Under the pieces are notes generated by a model. It did not search any database and had not been told where the DNA came from. It saw only the letters and a program-made list of their open reading frames with translations. 63,375 bases of DNA from Spirochaetales bacterium (lineage in GTDB: Bacteria; Spirochaetota; Spirochaetia; SZUA-6; JAFGRV01), in the NCBI GenBank assembly GCA_016937215.1, contig JAFGWI010000119.1:1-63375 (forward strand). Direction: 5' to 3'. Below are positions 5,183 through 53,172 of the stretch, in pieces. Position numbers and translations under genes: made by a program. The stretch's first letter is position 1, and each line of letters opens with the position of its first letter.

Positions 5183-5322
5183 GGGTGTTGCCTGACTTCG
5201 CTTCGCTGTGTCAGGCCGGGCTTTACGCGGTTCCAAAGCTTTTGGCGCGGAATTATCGCGCCAAAAGGCTTCTGAAATCGGTTTTTGAAAAAACCGATTT
5301 CAGCCGCTCCAATCCCTAACAC
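5183..5322 (-). repeat. Multi-hairpin intergenic element, copy B
   Basis: Read on the minus strand it opens with GTGTTAGGGATTGGAGC and ends with CAGGCAACACCC. Three hairpins are visible: a stem starting CTGAAATCGG, a stem CTTTTGGCGCG and a stem GCCTGAC/GTCAGGC. The terminal GTGTT pairs with AACAC; copies C-F have GCGTT with AACGC, a compensatory change. It lies between the divergent lepB and mutT promoters without overlapping either. Confidence 0.8.
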
Positions 5323-8234: not shown

Positions 8235-9704
8235 TCATCGATAAAAATCCAGCCATTTATCAGGAAAACTCCAGATATTTAATTCCTGATTATGAGGTGA
8301 TCGAAAGGCAGGCCCTCGCATTAAAGAGAATAGGGGAGGGCCCCAATAGCCATGATACTGAATCCAGGAAATCGAATCGCTAAGTATCTTTAAGCGATAA
8401 ACCTCGAGGTCCATTCTAATTTCACTGGAAGTTCGGTCGCTCCCCAAACGAAGCAACTTGTGATTGTCAAAATAGGCCTTATGTATACCTTTGGTAAAAT
8501 AACTACCATGCCCGCCTTTGGCAATATAAACCACTGGTCTGTTATTTTCCTTTTCAAGGTCATTATAGTTTTTCACAAAACCATAATAATGAGAAGAATA
8601 ACCAGCTTCAACAGGCTGTTGATTCTGATCAAGGCGAATCATTATCATTTCCCAATCAGCTTCGTGCACCAGCATCCCTGTGTCTCCAGCCTCACTGCCT
8701 AAAAAGAAAAACCAGTATTGGAGAATTATGCCTTGAGGGGTTTGGCATGCCCGGGCATAAACCATTTTTTCATACTCATTAGCAAAGGCCGCGGAAATAA
8801 TATCCGGCGGCTGCGCCAAACGCGTGTAATATTTCTTTCCAGGCTCCAAAGTACTTGATAAAAAATTAAGAGGCGCGGAGCTCACCTTTTTATCAAAGGC
8901 CCCCAAAAAACCATTGGATTCAAAAAGTTCGGCATGATCAAGATAGGCTTTCACATCAATCGGGATATAAGGATCATCCTGGGTCAAATAAATCACCGGA
9001 GCATAGCCTTCCAACAGCAACATGCTTTGCTCTGTATCAAGTGTAACCCCTGTTTTTGAAAAATCCTTTTGTTTTATTTCAGGAGCATATGAAAATGGAA
9101 TAAGCAAAATAGAAAGAGAAAAAATAATCACCAGGCAAATCAAAATGACGCGCCATTTTAGTGAAGTTATGAATATCCCAAAGAATTGATAAACATAGGT
9201 ATAGAATGAAATAATTATCAATACGAATGAAATGACTAAAAGGGGCAGACTTAGAAACCAAAGGTCAGGAAAAATAAACAAAACCATCGATGCCATCATG
9301 ATAAAGGTTCCGGCTTTTCCCCATATATTGGATTCCATAACCTTGCCTGTTTTAATTTTAATAAACAGCCCGCCAACAAGAATAAACAGATCACGGAGAC
9401 CGATCGTCAGAAAAACCCACCAGGGAACACCGCGGAACATAACAAGAGCTGCCAAAAGAATAAAAACAATAATCTTGTCTGCCAATGGATCAAGGATTCG
9501 TCCCAATTCGCTTTGCTGGTTTAATTTTCTCGCGAGGTATCCATCAAAAAAATCAGTGAGAAATACCAGAGTAAAAAAAACCAGGGTGATTATTTGACCT
9601 GCGAGGCTTTGCCATTGAAACAGAAAAAAAGCAAGGGGTGCAAAAAAAATGCGGCTTAAACTGAGGAGATTGGGAATTTTAAAAATATCTTTTTTCATGC
9701 TCAT
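8235..9704 (-). CDS. PgsA-like CDP-alcohol phosphatidyltransferase fused to a Vps62-like domain
   Basis: 489 residues. Residues 1-180 are a CDP-alcohol phosphatidyltransferase with the full motif DGYLAR, then G eight residues on, then DPLADK (about 50-78). They probably make phosphatidylglycerophosphate or a related lipid at the membrane. A further hydrophobic stretch around 185-205 leads to a C-terminal domain of about 280 residues. That domain carries HEADWEMIMIRL, YSSHYYGF and PVVYIAKGGHGSYF, the layout of Vps62-type domains (H-x-x-DWE, then VYxAxGxHxxYF). The fusion is unusual; the second half may act outside the membrane on the lipid product or on a glycan. Start ATG with GGAG five bases upstream. 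It could also be the cell's only PgsA. Confidence 0.75.
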   Translation of the reverse strand: MSMKKDIFKIPNLLSLSRIFFAPLAFFLFQWQSLAGQIITLVFFTLVFLTDFFDGYLARKLNQQSELGRILDPLADKIIVFILLAALVMFRGVPWWVFLTIGLRDLFILVGGLFIKIKTGKVMESNIWGKAGTFIMMASMVLFIFPDLWFLSLPLLVISFVLIIISFYTYVYQFFGIFITSLKWRVILICLVIIFSLSILLIPFSYAPEIKQKDFSKTGVTLDTEQSMLLLEGYAPVIYLTQDDPYIPIDVKAYLDHAELFESNGFLGAFDKKVSSAPLNFLSSTLEPGKKYYTRLAQPPDIISAAFANEYEKMVYARACQTPQGIILQYWFFFLGSEAGDTGMLVHEADWEMIMIRLDQNQQPVEAGYSSHYYGFVKNYNDLEKENNRPVVYIAKGGHGSYFTKGIHKAYFDNHKLLRLGSDRTSSEIRMDLEVYRLKILSDSISWIQYHGYWGPPLFSLMRGPAFRSPHNQELNIWSFPDKWLDFYR

Positions 9705-18645: not shown

Positions 18646-18797
18646 GGGCGTTACCTTCCTCCGCTACGCTCCGTAAGGCCCGGGCTCTTTGCTCCAACTC
18701 CTCGACCCTTTGGTTACTGGCCAAGGGCTCTGTTTTGTTGACCTGTCGCAACAATCTATCCGCAGGTCTGCGGGGTTTCCGCGTCGATCCCTAACGC
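18646..18797 (-). repeat. Multi-hairpin intergenic element, copy C (subtype II)
   Basis: On the minus strand it opens with GCGTTAGGGATCGACGCGG, continues AAACCCCGCAG, and near the end has CGAGGAGTTGGAGC, GAGCCCGGGCC and GGTAACGCCC. Terminal GCGTT/AACGC pairing is kept. The centre differs from copies A, B, D, E and F but its linkers match copy G, so C and G form a second subtype. Confidence 0.75.
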
Positions 18798-18955
18798 GTT
18801 TTTCACCCAAGACAGGGTTTGACCCTCATGGTGCCTTGCTATTAGCTCTTTTATAATATTATGGGATTTTTCGCCCTTGCGAATAAAAAGCGCCTCCCTA
18901 TGTTCTGTGTGAAATTACTGGATCGCTCATAAACTCTCAGAGTGGCCCGAATTCA

Positions 18956-19111
18956 GCGTTAGGGATTGGAGTTATGGGCTTCAGGTTTTTTAAAACCTGA
19001 AGCCCAAAGCGTTTTTCCCCTGATTTTTTCAGGGGAAAAACCTTCGGAGGCGAAAGCCGGAGTAACGCAAAGCCCGGGCCTGGCCTAGCGGAGCGGAGCC
19101 AGGCAACGCCC
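18956..19111 (+). repeat. Multi-hairpin intergenic element, copy D (complete reference copy)
   Basis: Complete copy: opens GCGTTAGGGATTGGAG and closes CAGGCAACGCCC. Hairpin 1 has the stem CTTCAGGTTTT, hairpin 2 the stem TTTTTCCCCTGA and hairpin 3 the stem GCCTGGC/GCCAGGC. The linkers AAAGCG, CCTTCGGAGGCG and AAAGCCCGG match copies A, B, E and F in part or whole. Copies C and D lie in the same intergenic gap in opposite orientation, 158 bases apart. Confidence 0.8.
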
Positions 19112-39441: not shown

Positions 39442-39593
39442 GGGCGTTTCCCGAAAACCCTCCGGGATTTTCGGGTCGCTCTGTTCCGCAGCTCCGCCAA
39501 GGCTTCGAACCACAGCCCCGCTAAAAAAACGCGGTGCTGTGGTTGTTTGTGTTTTTTTGAAAAAAAACACAAACCTGCTCCCATCGCTAACGC
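39442..39593 (-). repeat. Multi-hairpin intergenic element, copy E
   Basis: On the minus strand it opens GCGTTAGCGATGGGAGC (one base changed in the AGGG block) and ends GGGAAACGCCC. Hairpin 1 has the stem GTTTGTGTTTTTTT, hairpin 2 the stem CCACAGC with CCGC inside, and hairpin 3 the stem CCCGAAAA/TTTTCGGG. GCGTT/AACGC terminal pairing is kept. It lies between hisI and glgC. Confidence 0.75.
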
Positions 39594-47834: not shown

Positions 47835-48248
47835 TTATTCATTCATTAAAGCCATAAAAGCTTCGCTGATTAAATTTCGGCTACGCTCAATAATCAAATC
47901 CCGCGCGTCACCTTTTTCAAGCTTATCAACCTTAGCCTTTACATAATTTCGAACACGCTCCGAAAGGTTTCTGTACAGAACCTCTTTAATACACTGATCC
48001 GCGTCTATCATGGCCGTGATCAAATCAGTCCCATTGATTTTTCGTAACATTCTTTGAATGGTTACATCATCCATTTGGGAAATGGAATCAAAGTCCGGTA
48101 CAATTTCAGGACCAGTGGAACGGTTTAAAATAATTTTTCCCTCTGTTATTTCAAGTTCAATTTCATCACCAAAACTGAGCTGCTTCAAAATAGCCTGGGG
48201 AATTCGTATTCCCTTCGAATTCCCGATAGTAACAATTGGTATTCGCAT
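47835..48248 (-). CDS. AbrB/MazE-type DNA-binding domain fused to a FliG C-terminal domain
   Basis: 137 residues. Residues 1-45 are a SpoVT-AbrB swapped-hairpin domain (VTIGNSKGIRIPQAILKQL, then FGDEIELEITEGKIIL), as in MazE antitoxins and AbrB regulators. Residues 55-132 match FliG_C: FDSISQMDDVTIQRMLRKIN, then DLITAMIDADQCIKEVLYRN and LSERVRNYVKAKVDKL, close to the FliG pattern DDRxIQxxLR - DLxxALKGA - FxNMSxRA. The DD pair of the rotor ridge is kept (60-61). No toxin gene is adjacent. Start ATG 48248 with GGAGG six bases upstream. This could link motor or rotor state to transcription, or FliG_C may serve only as an oligomerisation module. Confidence 0.72.
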   Translation of the reverse strand: MRIPIVTIGNSKGIRIPQAILKQLSFGDEIELEITEGKIILNRSTGPEIVPDFDSISQMDDVTIQRMLRKINGTDLITAMIDADQCIKEVLYRNLSERVRNYVKAKVDKLEKGDARDLIIERSRNLISEAFMALMNE

Positions 48249-48384
48249 CCTTTTCCTCCAGTAAAATTGTATATACATAAAGTATACATTGTAATTACGA
48301 TGTAATCAACAATTATTTACGAGAATTCAGTAACATGATAATCTAAAGAGTCAGGGGGAGGAATTATTCTGGTAATTCATATTT
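48249..48384. other. Intergenic region upstream of the AbrB-FliG_C gene
   Basis: Contains the AT-rich promoter region of the minus-strand operon, with the palindromic GTATATACATAAAGTATAC near 48269-48287 that could be an operator for the AbrB-type protein itself. No gene. Confidence 0.35.
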
Positions 48385-48533
48385 GGGCGTTGCCTTGGAA
48401 CCTCCGGTATCCAAGGCCGGGCTTTCCAGCACTCCGCCAAAGGCTCCGACCCCAAAGGCGGCTTTGGGCGCCGCCTTTGGGTTGGCTGCGCCGTTTTTGA
48501 AAAAACGGCTTGCCTGCTTCCAATCCCTAACGC
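48385..48533 (-). repeat. Multi-hairpin intergenic element, copy F
   Basis: On the minus strand it opens GCGTTAGGGATTGGAAGC and ends AAGGCAACGCCC. Hairpin 1 has the stem GCCGTTTTT, hairpin 2 CCCAAAGGCGGC and hairpin 3 GCCTTGGA/TCCAAGGC. The linkers GAGCCTTTGGCGGAG and AAAGCCCGG correspond to those of copies D and E. It lies between the AbrB-FliG_C operon and the cellulase gene. Confidence 0.78.
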
Positions 48534-48583
48534 AATGCATTATAAAAGCAGATGACCTGATGTGCTCGTATATCAATGAAAAA

Positions 48584-48620
48584 CAGCGCTTAATACCCGA
48601 AAATATGGTCTTAAGCGCTG
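48584..48620. other. Inverted repeat near copy F
   Basis: CAGCGCTTAA and TTAAGCGCTG form a 10-bp perfect stem around a 17-base loop between copy F and the cellulase terminator. No T-run on either side; role unknown. Confidence 0.35.
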
Positions 48621-48639
48621 CAGATTGAAGACTGAATAT

Positions 48640-48680
48640 AAATAAAAATTGCTTTACCAATTCCAGGATGGTAAAGCAAT
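48640..48680 (-). terminator. Rho-independent terminator of the cellulase gene
   Basis: ATTGCTTTACCA (48648-48659) and TGGTAAAGCAAT (48669-48680) form a perfect 12-bp stem with a 9-base loop. On the minus strand the stem is followed by a TTTTTATTTATA tract. Confidence 0.8.
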
Positions 48681-48691
48681 CCCATAAAAAC

Positions 48692-51001
48692 CTAACATAA
48701 CAATGACGAAGTTATCCCTACATAGAACTGGGCGACCAAAAGGGCATCGACTATATTAATGGCATTGTCACAATTGACATCTGCCTTGCTGACATTGATG
48801 TCCCTTGTCAGCCCGACATAATATTGGGCAATTAAAAGCGCGTCCACGATGTTGACTTTACCGCTATTATCAACATCGCCAATTAATCCCGGGCTGAGTG
48901 TAGGGGTAGGTTCAGGGCTCACACCTTGGCCGGGAGGTTCGATTCCCGAAATAAGTTTGTTACCAAGATAGAGGGTAATATAATCCGTCGGGGCCAGATC
49001 CTCTCCAAGCCCCTTCTGGCTGTAATCATTGGCACCATTCCAATAGGATTTCCATTCAGGCCCCTGTTCCGCAATCAAGGCCACTTGATACTCTCTTGAA
49101 CCGTAAATATCAATACCCGCCCAGTCCATTTCAACATAATAGATATTTTTGGTTTCATCCCAGGGAAAAGGCCCTGAGAGCTTGACCGGTGTTTTGAACC
49201 TGAAATCACATTCATCATACATCACATCTGCGCTCACATCATCAATGCTCTGTCCTACCTCTACCATCTCGCTGATGTCAAAGAAATAACGGCTTTTCAG
49301 CCTGGTCTCGAAAAAGGGCGGAATGAATAATTGACCAAAAACCTGGATCGTTACCTGTGACCGTTGATTATTTTCCTGCACAATTTTAGCTTTCAATGAA
49401 TGCTCACCGGTAATTTCTTCAGGCGGAGGAAAATCCGCCAGGGGCATATGATTTTCATCTCTTCCAAAATAGTGGTAAAGCCCCGCCAAAGCACCGACCA
49501 AACCGGCATTATAATCGATGGCCACTTCGTTGTAGATATAATCATCGGTGGCATCCACATGTTTGTCAGAACTGTCCGGGCCGCCCACAAGGGCTCCCCA
49601 TAAAATATGGCGATGCTCAGGCGGATCAAGCAAATTATTGGTTGTGGAACCGTGGGCCGCACGGTGATGGGGGTGGCGGGCATAATCATCGCCATAGCCG
49701 ACGATATAGGAACGACCCATGGGGTTGTCACCCATAATATAACTCATCTGGTTTTTGGACCACTGGGCCATATCTCTTCGGTTACGATGTTTCCCATAAA
49801 TGAGTCCGCATAATTGGGCCGCGCAATTGTAGCGGGCAGAGCCCCAGGTGTTCAGCATGGCATAACCTCCGGGAGTATAAAAAACATAGGATGTGTCATT
49901 AGGATCTTCATGAGGAACCATGCCATTAGACCAGAACTCAATATTCCAGCGGGCAAAATAATCAAACTGCTCATTATCAGGGAAAAGGGTGGCCAATTTT
50001 ACAAAAGCCCCGCCCCAAACAGCATCCCAGCAATGGACCCAAATGTTTTGCCAGGTGTCGCCCGGCGCGGTAATAATTTTTCCCATATAACCGGTAAAAT
50101 TACCCTGACTATCAACAGCACCGATATCATCATAATAACGGGTATCACCTGTTGCTTCGTAAAGCCAGACAGCGGCCCATGAAAGTTCATCATCATCATA
50201 CATAGACTGGTAAAAAGAACCAGCGTAGCCCAAACCCCGGTATCTTACAGCAAAATCATAAAGGGCTTTGGCTGTGGCCAAACAACGGTCCGCGTAAGCT
50301 GGGTCGATTTTATGATATACCATTGACATGATGGTTAAGGCAGCAGAAGCTCCAGCGCATTGATCGCTGGCTGGAGTTTCCGCTGTGGCAAAATAGGCTG
50401 GCCGAGGATAGAGTTCAACATCCTGAAGCTCCGGGACACCCCAGTAATTGTGGTCAGTATCACCTTCACCAACCTGGTAACCAAAAGCGATCAGATTACC
50501 CGATTGATCAAAAAAAGCGCTTCGCAAAAAATAATCGGTAAACCATTTCACAATGTCGATCATATGGTCATATTCATTTATATCAATAAAAGACTGTTCA
50601 AATTCATAGAGCCCCCATAAAAGAGTTGCCGCAGTATAACTTTGGGGCAAGCCGAATTTCACATGATCACCCGCATCATGCATACCCCCATGAAGATCAA
50701 CACCTCCATCGCCGTCTGGATCAAGTATATCCCGATATTTATTGATAAAGCTTTGCGAAAGAACCACGCCGTTTTCCAGTGTTCCTTTAGGCTTTGAAAC
50801 CAAGGGCACATGAGAATCGGTAGTTTCCGAATCACCCCGCCATTGAAGCCTGCCGCCTGTAATGCCGGGCCCGGATTTTTCAGCATCATAAAAGTAAAGG
50901 GATTTTTGCAAAGCCTCGGCAAAATTGATCGATTGAGCCTGGGCGGAAAAAGCTGTTATTAATAGACCGATCAAAAGAGCCATATACTTTTTCTTTTTCA
51001 T
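48692..51001 (-). CDS. Secreted GH9 endoglucanase with CBM3-like and dockerin modules
   Basis: About 769 residues. Signal peptide ending in AFSAQA. The GH9 catalytic domain (about 25-460) has DAGDHVKFGLP with the catalytic Asp pair, the conserved His in ARHPHHRAAHG and the acid-catalyst region DDYIYNEVAIDYNAG. A CBM3c-like domain follows (RSQVTIQVFGQ, SRYFFDISEMVEVG), then a Pro-rich linker (PEPTPTLSPG) and two dockerin repeats (GDVDNSGKVNIVDALLIAQY and ADVNCDNAINIVDALLVAQF) that bind calcium and normally dock to a cohesin. Processive endoglucanases have this GH9-CBM3c order. The ATG at 51001 follows AAGGA. No cohesin or scaffoldin gene lies in the window. Confidence 0.9.
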   Translation of the reverse strand: MKKKKYMALLIGLLITAFSAQAQSINFAEALQKSLYFYDAEKSGPGITGGRLQWRGDSETTDSHVPLVSKPKGTLENGVVLSQSFINKYRDILDPDGDGGVDLHGGMHDAGDHVKFGLPQSYTAATLLWGLYEFEQSFIDINEYDHMIDIVKWFTDYFLRSAFFDQSGNLIAFGYQVGEGDTDHNYWGVPELQDVELYPRPAYFATAETPASDQCAGASAALTIMSMVYHKIDPAYADRCLATAKALYDFAVRYRGLGYAGSFYQSMYDDDELSWAAVWLYEATGDTRYYDDIGAVDSQGNFTGYMGKIITAPGDTWQNIWVHCWDAVWGGAFVKLATLFPDNEQFDYFARWNIEFWSNGMVPHEDPNDTSYVFYTPGGYAMLNTWGSARYNCAAQLCGLIYGKHRNRRDMAQWSKNQMSYIMGDNPMGRSYIVGYGDDYARHPHHRAAHGSTTNNLLDPPEHRHILWGALVGGPDSSDKHVDATDDYIYNEVAIDYNAGLVGALAGLYHYFGRDENHMPLADFPPPEEITGEHSLKAKIVQENNQRSQVTIQVFGQLFIPPFFETRLKSRYFFDISEMVEVGQSIDDVSADVMYDECDFRFKTPVKLSGPFPWDETKNIYYVEMDWAGIDIYGSREYQVALIAEQGPEWKSYWNGANDYSQKGLGEDLAPTDYITLYLGNKLISGIEPPGQGVSPEPTPTLSPGLIGDVDNSGKVNIVDALLIAQYYVGLTRDINVSKADVNCDNAINIVDALLVAQFYVGITSSLLC

Positions 51002-51076
51002 TTTTATTATTCCTTTCATTTTTTTTATAATTCAACACCCCGCTGTATATGCAGTTGCGACTTTTGACTAAAAAGT

Positions 51077-52999: not shown

Positions 53000-53172
53000 G
53001 TGTTAGGGATCGAAGGGGAAACCCCGCAGCAGCCCGGCTTTTTATGGGTTTAATATTTTTCAGGATTCCTTTTTCGCTACAAACTCAAAATGACTGTTTT
53101 ATGAAAGCGGCTGCGAGGAGTTGGACCGGAGAGCCCGGCCTGTGAAAGCCCTGCTTTCACAGGCAACACCCC
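53000..53172 (+). repeat. Multi-hairpin intergenic element, copy G (subtype II)
   Basis: Opens GTGTTAGGGATCGAAGGGG, continues AAACCCCGCAG and near the end has GCGAGGAGTTGGACC, GAGAGCCCGGCC and CAGGCAACACCC. The last hairpin has the stem GCCTGTGAAAGC. It shares its internal linkers with copy C but has the GTGTT/AACAC terminal pair found in copy B. Confidence 0.78.

Follow-up and report, generated by a model that had tools for sequence, protein, structure and literature searches.

A folded element of ∼110–155 bases is present in nearly 400 copies in the 5.1-Mb genome of a spirochaete, and in a subset of these copies, probably the younger ones, it sits at the centre of a miniature transposon of ∼215 bp that has terminal inverted repeats of 14 bp (TIRs; TGTAYTTGTTTAGC) and 6-bp target duplications. 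The element is part of a superfamily of folded elements distributed across three phyla, which includes the Rfam family Flavo-1 (RF01705). Seven copies lie in the window, the whole 63,375-nucleotide stretch of DNA analysed here, where a first-pass annotation of the sequence had described them as intergenic elements with fixed linkers and freely changing stems. We give about even chances to the reading that this is a mobile element folding as a single strand (probably as RNA, on the strand as read), one that in this lineage was spread through DNA transposition and has been kept by selection for its shape.

The folded element and its copies

The outermost helix of the element, P1, pairs GYGTT with AACRC, the Y/R position covarying, and is followed by an unpaired A and a second helix, P2, in which GGG pairs with CCC. 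Inside P2 lies an internal loop comprising A opposite G, a U-A pair, a free pair (N.N') and G-N-A opposite G-N-A, and beyond it the hairpins of the interior are closed off by P3, a helix of some four variable pairs. The 3' part consists of GG, a variable 3' hairpin and AACGCC. Copy D of the window (18956–19111, plus strand; 50.3 bits with the covariance model described below) is complete and illustrates this layout: the P1 5' strand GCGTT (18956–18960) pairs with 19105–19109, position 2 of P1 covarying between C-G and T-A; the P2 5' strand GGG (18962–18964) pairs with CCC (19073–19075); the loop strand A-T-N-G-N-A (18965–18970) faces G-N-A-N'-A-G directly 5' of CCC; the GCCCGG linker, assigned from sequence, is at 19072–19077; and AACGCCC (19105–19111) provides the P1 3' strand and ends the element. 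P2 has been compensated to A-T in one young subfamily, in which GCGTTAAGGAT occurs with AAAGCCTGG.

The seven copies are where the first-pass annotation had placed them. All are recovered by R1, a covariance model of the outer frame trained mostly on copies outside the window and on other phyla (E-values 1e-15 to 1e-4), and GTTAGSGAT occurs in the window without mismatch exactly six times, once per complete copy. Copy A (1–143, plus; R1 match 1–140) has lost its 5' end at the contig start. Copies B (5183–5322, minus) and F (48385–48533, minus) score 63.7 and 59 bits with R1, B having a compensated P1 (GTGTT/AACAC). Copies C (18646–18797, minus; 35.6 bits) and D have their 5' ends towards each other; D has the first interior type, made up of several hairpins, and C, judging from its sequence, the second, Flavo-1-like type. 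Copy G (53000–53172, plus; 55 bits; P1 GTGTT/AACAC) also has a Flavo-1-like interior. Copy E (39442–39593, minus; 24.8 bits, E-value 2.7e-5) is divergent (GTTAGCGAT) and, as had been noted, lacks GCCCGG. All copies in the window are intergenic; a 98-aa open reading frame across copy F (48364–48660) looks spurious.

The neighboring genes of the window include those of a V-type ATPase, which fits a spirochaete. A 147-aa protein adjoining copy F (47835–48278, minus) joins a MazE-type N-terminus to a FliG C-terminal domain, and 48692–51019 (minus) encodes a GH9 cellulase with CBM3 and dockerin domains, which in a spirochaete genome suggests a cellulosome-like or borrowed cellulase.

Strong selection on shape, proposed in the first-pass annotation, is supported by covariation far above that of shuffled sequences, and the absence of covariation beyond chance, named there as a possible refutation, was not what we found. 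The alignment register was fixed from the linkers, independently of the fold. A set of 22 sequences from three phyla has a covariation score of 0.416 versus 0.119 in shuffles, a value reached by none of 500 shuffles, and every slid register scores 0.11 or less. N.N' forms a Watson-Crick pair in 110 of 113 copies (T-A 76, A-T 23, C-G 6, G-C 5), compared with a mean of 58 and a maximum of 71 after shuffling; the pairs of P3 covary in the same way, as do several in the 3' hairpin, and the G.A and A.G positions are nearly invariant. The linkers are fixed and the stems differ between copies, as had been claimed, yet the stems pair within each copy: 66 of 99 copies carry 11 or more perfect pairs in their first hairpin, these 66 long-stem copies have 59 different 7-nt arm sequences, and an arm makes 0.8 mismatches per 7 pairs with its own partner (all 99 copies) versus 4.9 with the arm of another copy (tested in the 66). 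An outer inverted repeat was rejected as an additional covarying stem, its sequence being conserved and shuffled partners pairing about equally well.

Whole-genome counts were obtained by pattern searches with the linkers and revealed many further copies, the opposite of the other refuting outcome that had been considered. The 5' linker GCGTTAGGGATNG has 387 matches in the genome (control 0), and the three linkers in order have 179 exact matches (85 forward, 94 reverse; reversed control pattern 0). R1 gives 174 matches in 1.14 Mb of the same genome, in regions chosen around copies. The base preceding GCGTT (core position −1) is mostly a pyrimidine (C in 57 and T in 28 of 115 own-genome copies), and in other phyla it is often the last base of a short T-run.

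Relatives in three phyla

An impression recorded in the first-pass annotation as unverified, that similar modules occur in other phyla, proved correct, the frame being present in Fibrobacter and many Bacteroidota as well as in Treponema. A scan of all species contains real and chance matches mixed, with ∼100 chance matches expected by calculation, and only those folding into the frame were counted. The frame was found in Bacteroidota (Christiangramia, Gillisia, Zunongwangia, Leeuwenhoekiella, Flavobacterium, Pedobacter and a Cytophagaceae MAG), in Spirochaetota (Treponema and others) and in Fibrobacterota. Most Treponema-group genomes tested have 2–11 matches to the 5' linker and two have none; Fibrobacter has 8–9, a Flavobacterium 19, a Pedobacter 11 and the Cytophagaceae MAG 67. 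Three relatives from the spirochaete's own family have none. R1 makes 53 and 34 matches in loci of these genomes, a few of which belong to its training set.

The first-pass annotation could name no described family. Flavo-1 can be named, and our literature search found no named family other than this one, but the window copies stay below its gathering threshold of 42 bits: the highest-scoring, copy G, reaches 27.9 bits with the Flavo-1 model, and other subtype-2 copies of the genome reach 30–33. We therefore regard the window copies as relatives and do not file them as members of Flavo-1. The Flavo-1 core geometry, i.e., a GGG/CCC-type stem, a bulged A opposite G, two pairs and a G-N-A/G-N-A loop, is present. 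Some flavobacterial elements sharing the outer frame do exceed the threshold (L050, 55.1 bits; L059, 49.3), which identifies Flavo-1 as the interior of the same superfamily; two others, L049 (37.9) and L065 (35.0), fall just below. Among small-RNA families, Flavo-1 is listed as one of the most abundant, and no function is known for it.

At one intergenic site in Pedobacter the element is present in six species and absent in five others examined. Between G450 and G508 the element, at 92% identity, is far better conserved than the ∼40 bases immediately preceding it (48%), in keeping with a retained core, and in some other pairs of Pedobacter species the flank is shared too. The exact borders of insertion are unreadable at the empty Pedobacter sites, since the flanking repeats differ as well. 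Eight loci of G450 (L246–L253) have a conserved 3' flank, CAAATCAGTTNGCAGTT, after most copies, so the Pedobacter unit may have outer borders of its own, and another repeat (CCTGCTATCGCTGCAAGTCCTCGCTCG) lies upstream of the copy at one site in this genome. In the Cytophagaceae MAG (G444) REPIN-like inverted pairs of copies occur, tail to tail or head to head (e.g., C13:7989+/8273−, C18:30940+/31199− and C53:2543+/2801−), and no TIR was seen.

A miniature transposon as vehicle

Mobility, one of the possibilities raised in the first-pass annotation, is supported, the vehicle being a miniature transposon with TIRs and target duplications that it had missed and not the REP-like unit that it had suggested. 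When the flanks are read, TGTAYTTGTTTAGC stands at −37 to −24 of the core and its complement 8–15 nt past the core. Inward-facing TIR pairs cluster at 214–217 bp apart (263 bp in L118), and exact 6-bp duplications (ATAATT, ATTTTT, AATAGC, TTTTTT and TTTTTC) lie outside five TIR-paired units. The genome contains 133 TIRs and 62 copies with TIR plus core; other genomes of the order contain zero or one TIR. Many TIRs are found 70–200 bases away from the end of a contig, where repeats that are young and almost identical would be expected. The only clear TIR in the window is the 3' TIR of copy A (155–168; TGTATTTGTTTAGC on the minus strand, the exact TIR sequence), which agrees with the extended TIR at 15 of 17 positions and is at the usual distance from the core. 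Some TIR-bearing copies differ in their interior, which has tandem GCATGTATAAAGTGAATGCCAATGAGCATTCAC followed by GAGCAACAAATGCGAAGCATTTGTGACCAG, seen in L120 (minus; 5' linker at 9633 of the reversed locus), L090 (−13836), L096 (+6788), L082 (−18797) and at the contig start of L086; this is possibly a second repeat inserted in the second hairpin.

About half of the copies in the genome have no recognisable inverted repeats, and the TIR match at the fixed offset (−37) is graded across copies. The core is intact whatever the TIR state: its R1 score is independent of it (58.5 vs 54.8 bits, p = 0.53), a comparison that can overstate retention because copies with degraded cores are harder to find. 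Read most simply, the TIRs decay once a copy has inserted, with the core preserved, and loss of TIRs around an intact core would mean selection for the shape where the copy resides. Alternatively, the TIR-less copies may have arrived by another route, which would count against our reading.

No transposase gene flanked by the same TIRs was found in the genome, and the assembly, which breaks at these repeats, may lack the enzyme. The genome has two rve and two Y1 genes, none of them TIR-flanked, and the two rve genes were rejected as the partner on these grounds. The TIR and target duplication lead us to guess at a transposase of IS481-like type.

We propose the following model. P1 and P2 enclose an internal loop that closes the variable multi-hairpin interior, and the 3' hairpin and AACGCCC complete the folded module. 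This module, drawn from the superfamily that includes Flavo-1, would have become the core of a miniature inverted-repeat transposon in the present spirochaete lineage, and a transposase acting in trans would have spread it to its nearly 400 sites, where the TIRs decay and the core stays intact. The folding strand would be the strand as read, most likely RNA inside passing transcripts, in which the closed fold may be a tolerated or useful self-contained domain; the host may gain from it.

Folding strand and comparison with known systems

Copies occur in all types of gap between genes of the spirochaete genome, roughly as gap space predicts, and have a preferred strand there. Of the start codons within 250 bp, 65 are past the 3' end of the element (sense leader) and 26 past its 5' end (antisense). 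Of the 37 copies in divergent gaps, 32, including all 11 TIR-less ones, point at the nearer gene; stop codons have no such bias (55:46). These statistics use simple ORF calls as genes and treat copies as independent. RNA in passing transcripts is suggested because copies close to gene starts are mostly in sense. Mismatches in stems favor G.T over A.C (17:6), so the strand as read is probably the one that folds. Among 78 intergenic copies of other genomes the sense-leader bias is weak and not significant (32:22, p = 0.22); it is rejected as a general rule, and this counts against our reading.

The way the stems change is unusual. Between copies at least 86% identical, 69 pairs have changed on both sides and are still Watson-Crick, 33 have changed on one side only, and 38 of the 69 double changes are transversions. 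G.U makes up 2.4–3% of pairs and 0.9% inside long helices; five tRNAs have 11% and shuffled elements 13%. Few G.U pairs and many transversions are odd for an RNA evolving via G.U intermediates and thus speak against the element being kept as a folded RNA. Orthologous copies in Pedobacter include a change from A-T to G-C with one G.U intermediate, the ordinary route, and a 3'-hairpin tip exchanged as one block.

The scarcity of G.U pairs and the excess of double changes, many of them transversions, together with the almost perfect stems, speak for a fold that acts as single-stranded DNA, either as the substrate of a recombinase or transposase or as a hairpin at replication whose arms are matched by hairpin-templated copying (template switching) and not by selection. 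We consider this unlikely, since copying within hairpins leaves unexplained the covariation of the isolated N.N' pair and of P3, whose strands are ∼90 nt apart, as well as the excess of G.T over A.C and the sense bias near starts, and a vehicle with TIRs and target duplications is the mark of double-strand transposition. The same sense bias, above all in divergent gaps, and the complex conserved internal loop could also point to a cis-regulatory leader RNA, in which sense copies upstream of genes regulate them via a ligand or protein. That role is improbable: the functions of the genes flanking the window copies are unrelated, many copies are antisense or in convergent gaps, and the bias is not significant elsewhere. 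A stand-alone small RNA gene, the class in which Rfam places Flavo-1, is very improbable for an element with hundreds of copies in both orientations. In the one published data set, which is from Flavobacterium psychrophilum and is ambiguous, Flavo-1 matches are sense or antisense to transcripts indistinctly and many lie outside transcripts (PMC9723704), which argues against a consistently transcribed gene and also against our own reading of the element as RNA.

The first-pass annotation had suggested looking for a matching RAYT gene. Two RAYT-like Y1 genes of 159 aa each are present (G000 C114:4125–4460, plus, and C180:3002–3343, minus; L091 and L092), near GGGACAGACC / GGTCTGTCCC motifs resembling repeats of their own. 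Mobilisation of a REP-like unit by such a Y1 transposase, despite one of the two genes lying ∼310 bp from a copy and the inverted pairs in the Cytophagaceae MAG, is the least credible explanation and is hardly to be entertained, as no Y1 gene was found in eight copy-bearing genomes (G286, G343, G354, G358, G390, G438, G447 and G448), Y1 genes are present in the element-free relatives G001–G003, both RAYT-like genes have GGGACAGACC-type flanks of their own and the stem sequences are not conserved as in REPs.

The reading that we prefer, a folded and probably RNA-borne module spread by transposition and kept for its shape, can be extended to one module of the same architecture in Bacteroidota, Spirochaetota and Fibrobacterota that has used different DNA vehicles in each lineage, with shape selection after decay of the vehicle and with hairpin-templated copying that rewrites the two sides of a stem together. 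This wider proposal is tentative and, taken as a whole, rather unlikely. With different stems in each of nearly 400 natural copies, the element offers a data set for the origin of paired changes, on which selection through intermediates can be weighed against copying of one arm from the other.

Like MITEs, the spirochaete unit is short and non-coding, with TIRs at a fixed distance, 6-bp target duplications and a high copy number; unlike them, its core is a covarying fold common to several phyla and kept where TIRs are not recognisable. The finding of the fold as the core of such a transposon in this genome is new; it identifies the means of spread in one lineage, and what moves the element can now be separated from what keeps it. 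REP/REPIN elements with their RAYTs are likewise intergenic hairpin repeats, sometimes in inverted pairs, but here the stems are free and the linkers fixed, there is no co-occurrence with RAYT genes, and target duplications are present. Integron attC sites (RYYYAAC 5', GTTRRRY 3', in arrays) were considered and rejected, the ends being reversed (GTT...AAC) and the copies dispersed. Flavo-1 shares the core geometry (ccGAUuGaAGc / gCGgAaAGCgg; Weinberg et al. 2010, PMC2864571) and, as here, occurs in many copies per genome without clear gene association (PMC9723704). The Flavo-1 model describes the interior only (76 positions), without P1 or the 3' hairpin, and the taxa listed for it are Bacteroidetes; the elements reported here differ in that their interiors are of several types, they extend into new phyla and they have a transposon as vehicle. 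The real borders and the extra helices of a Flavo-1-type unit are thereby made visible, and its range is widened by two phyla.
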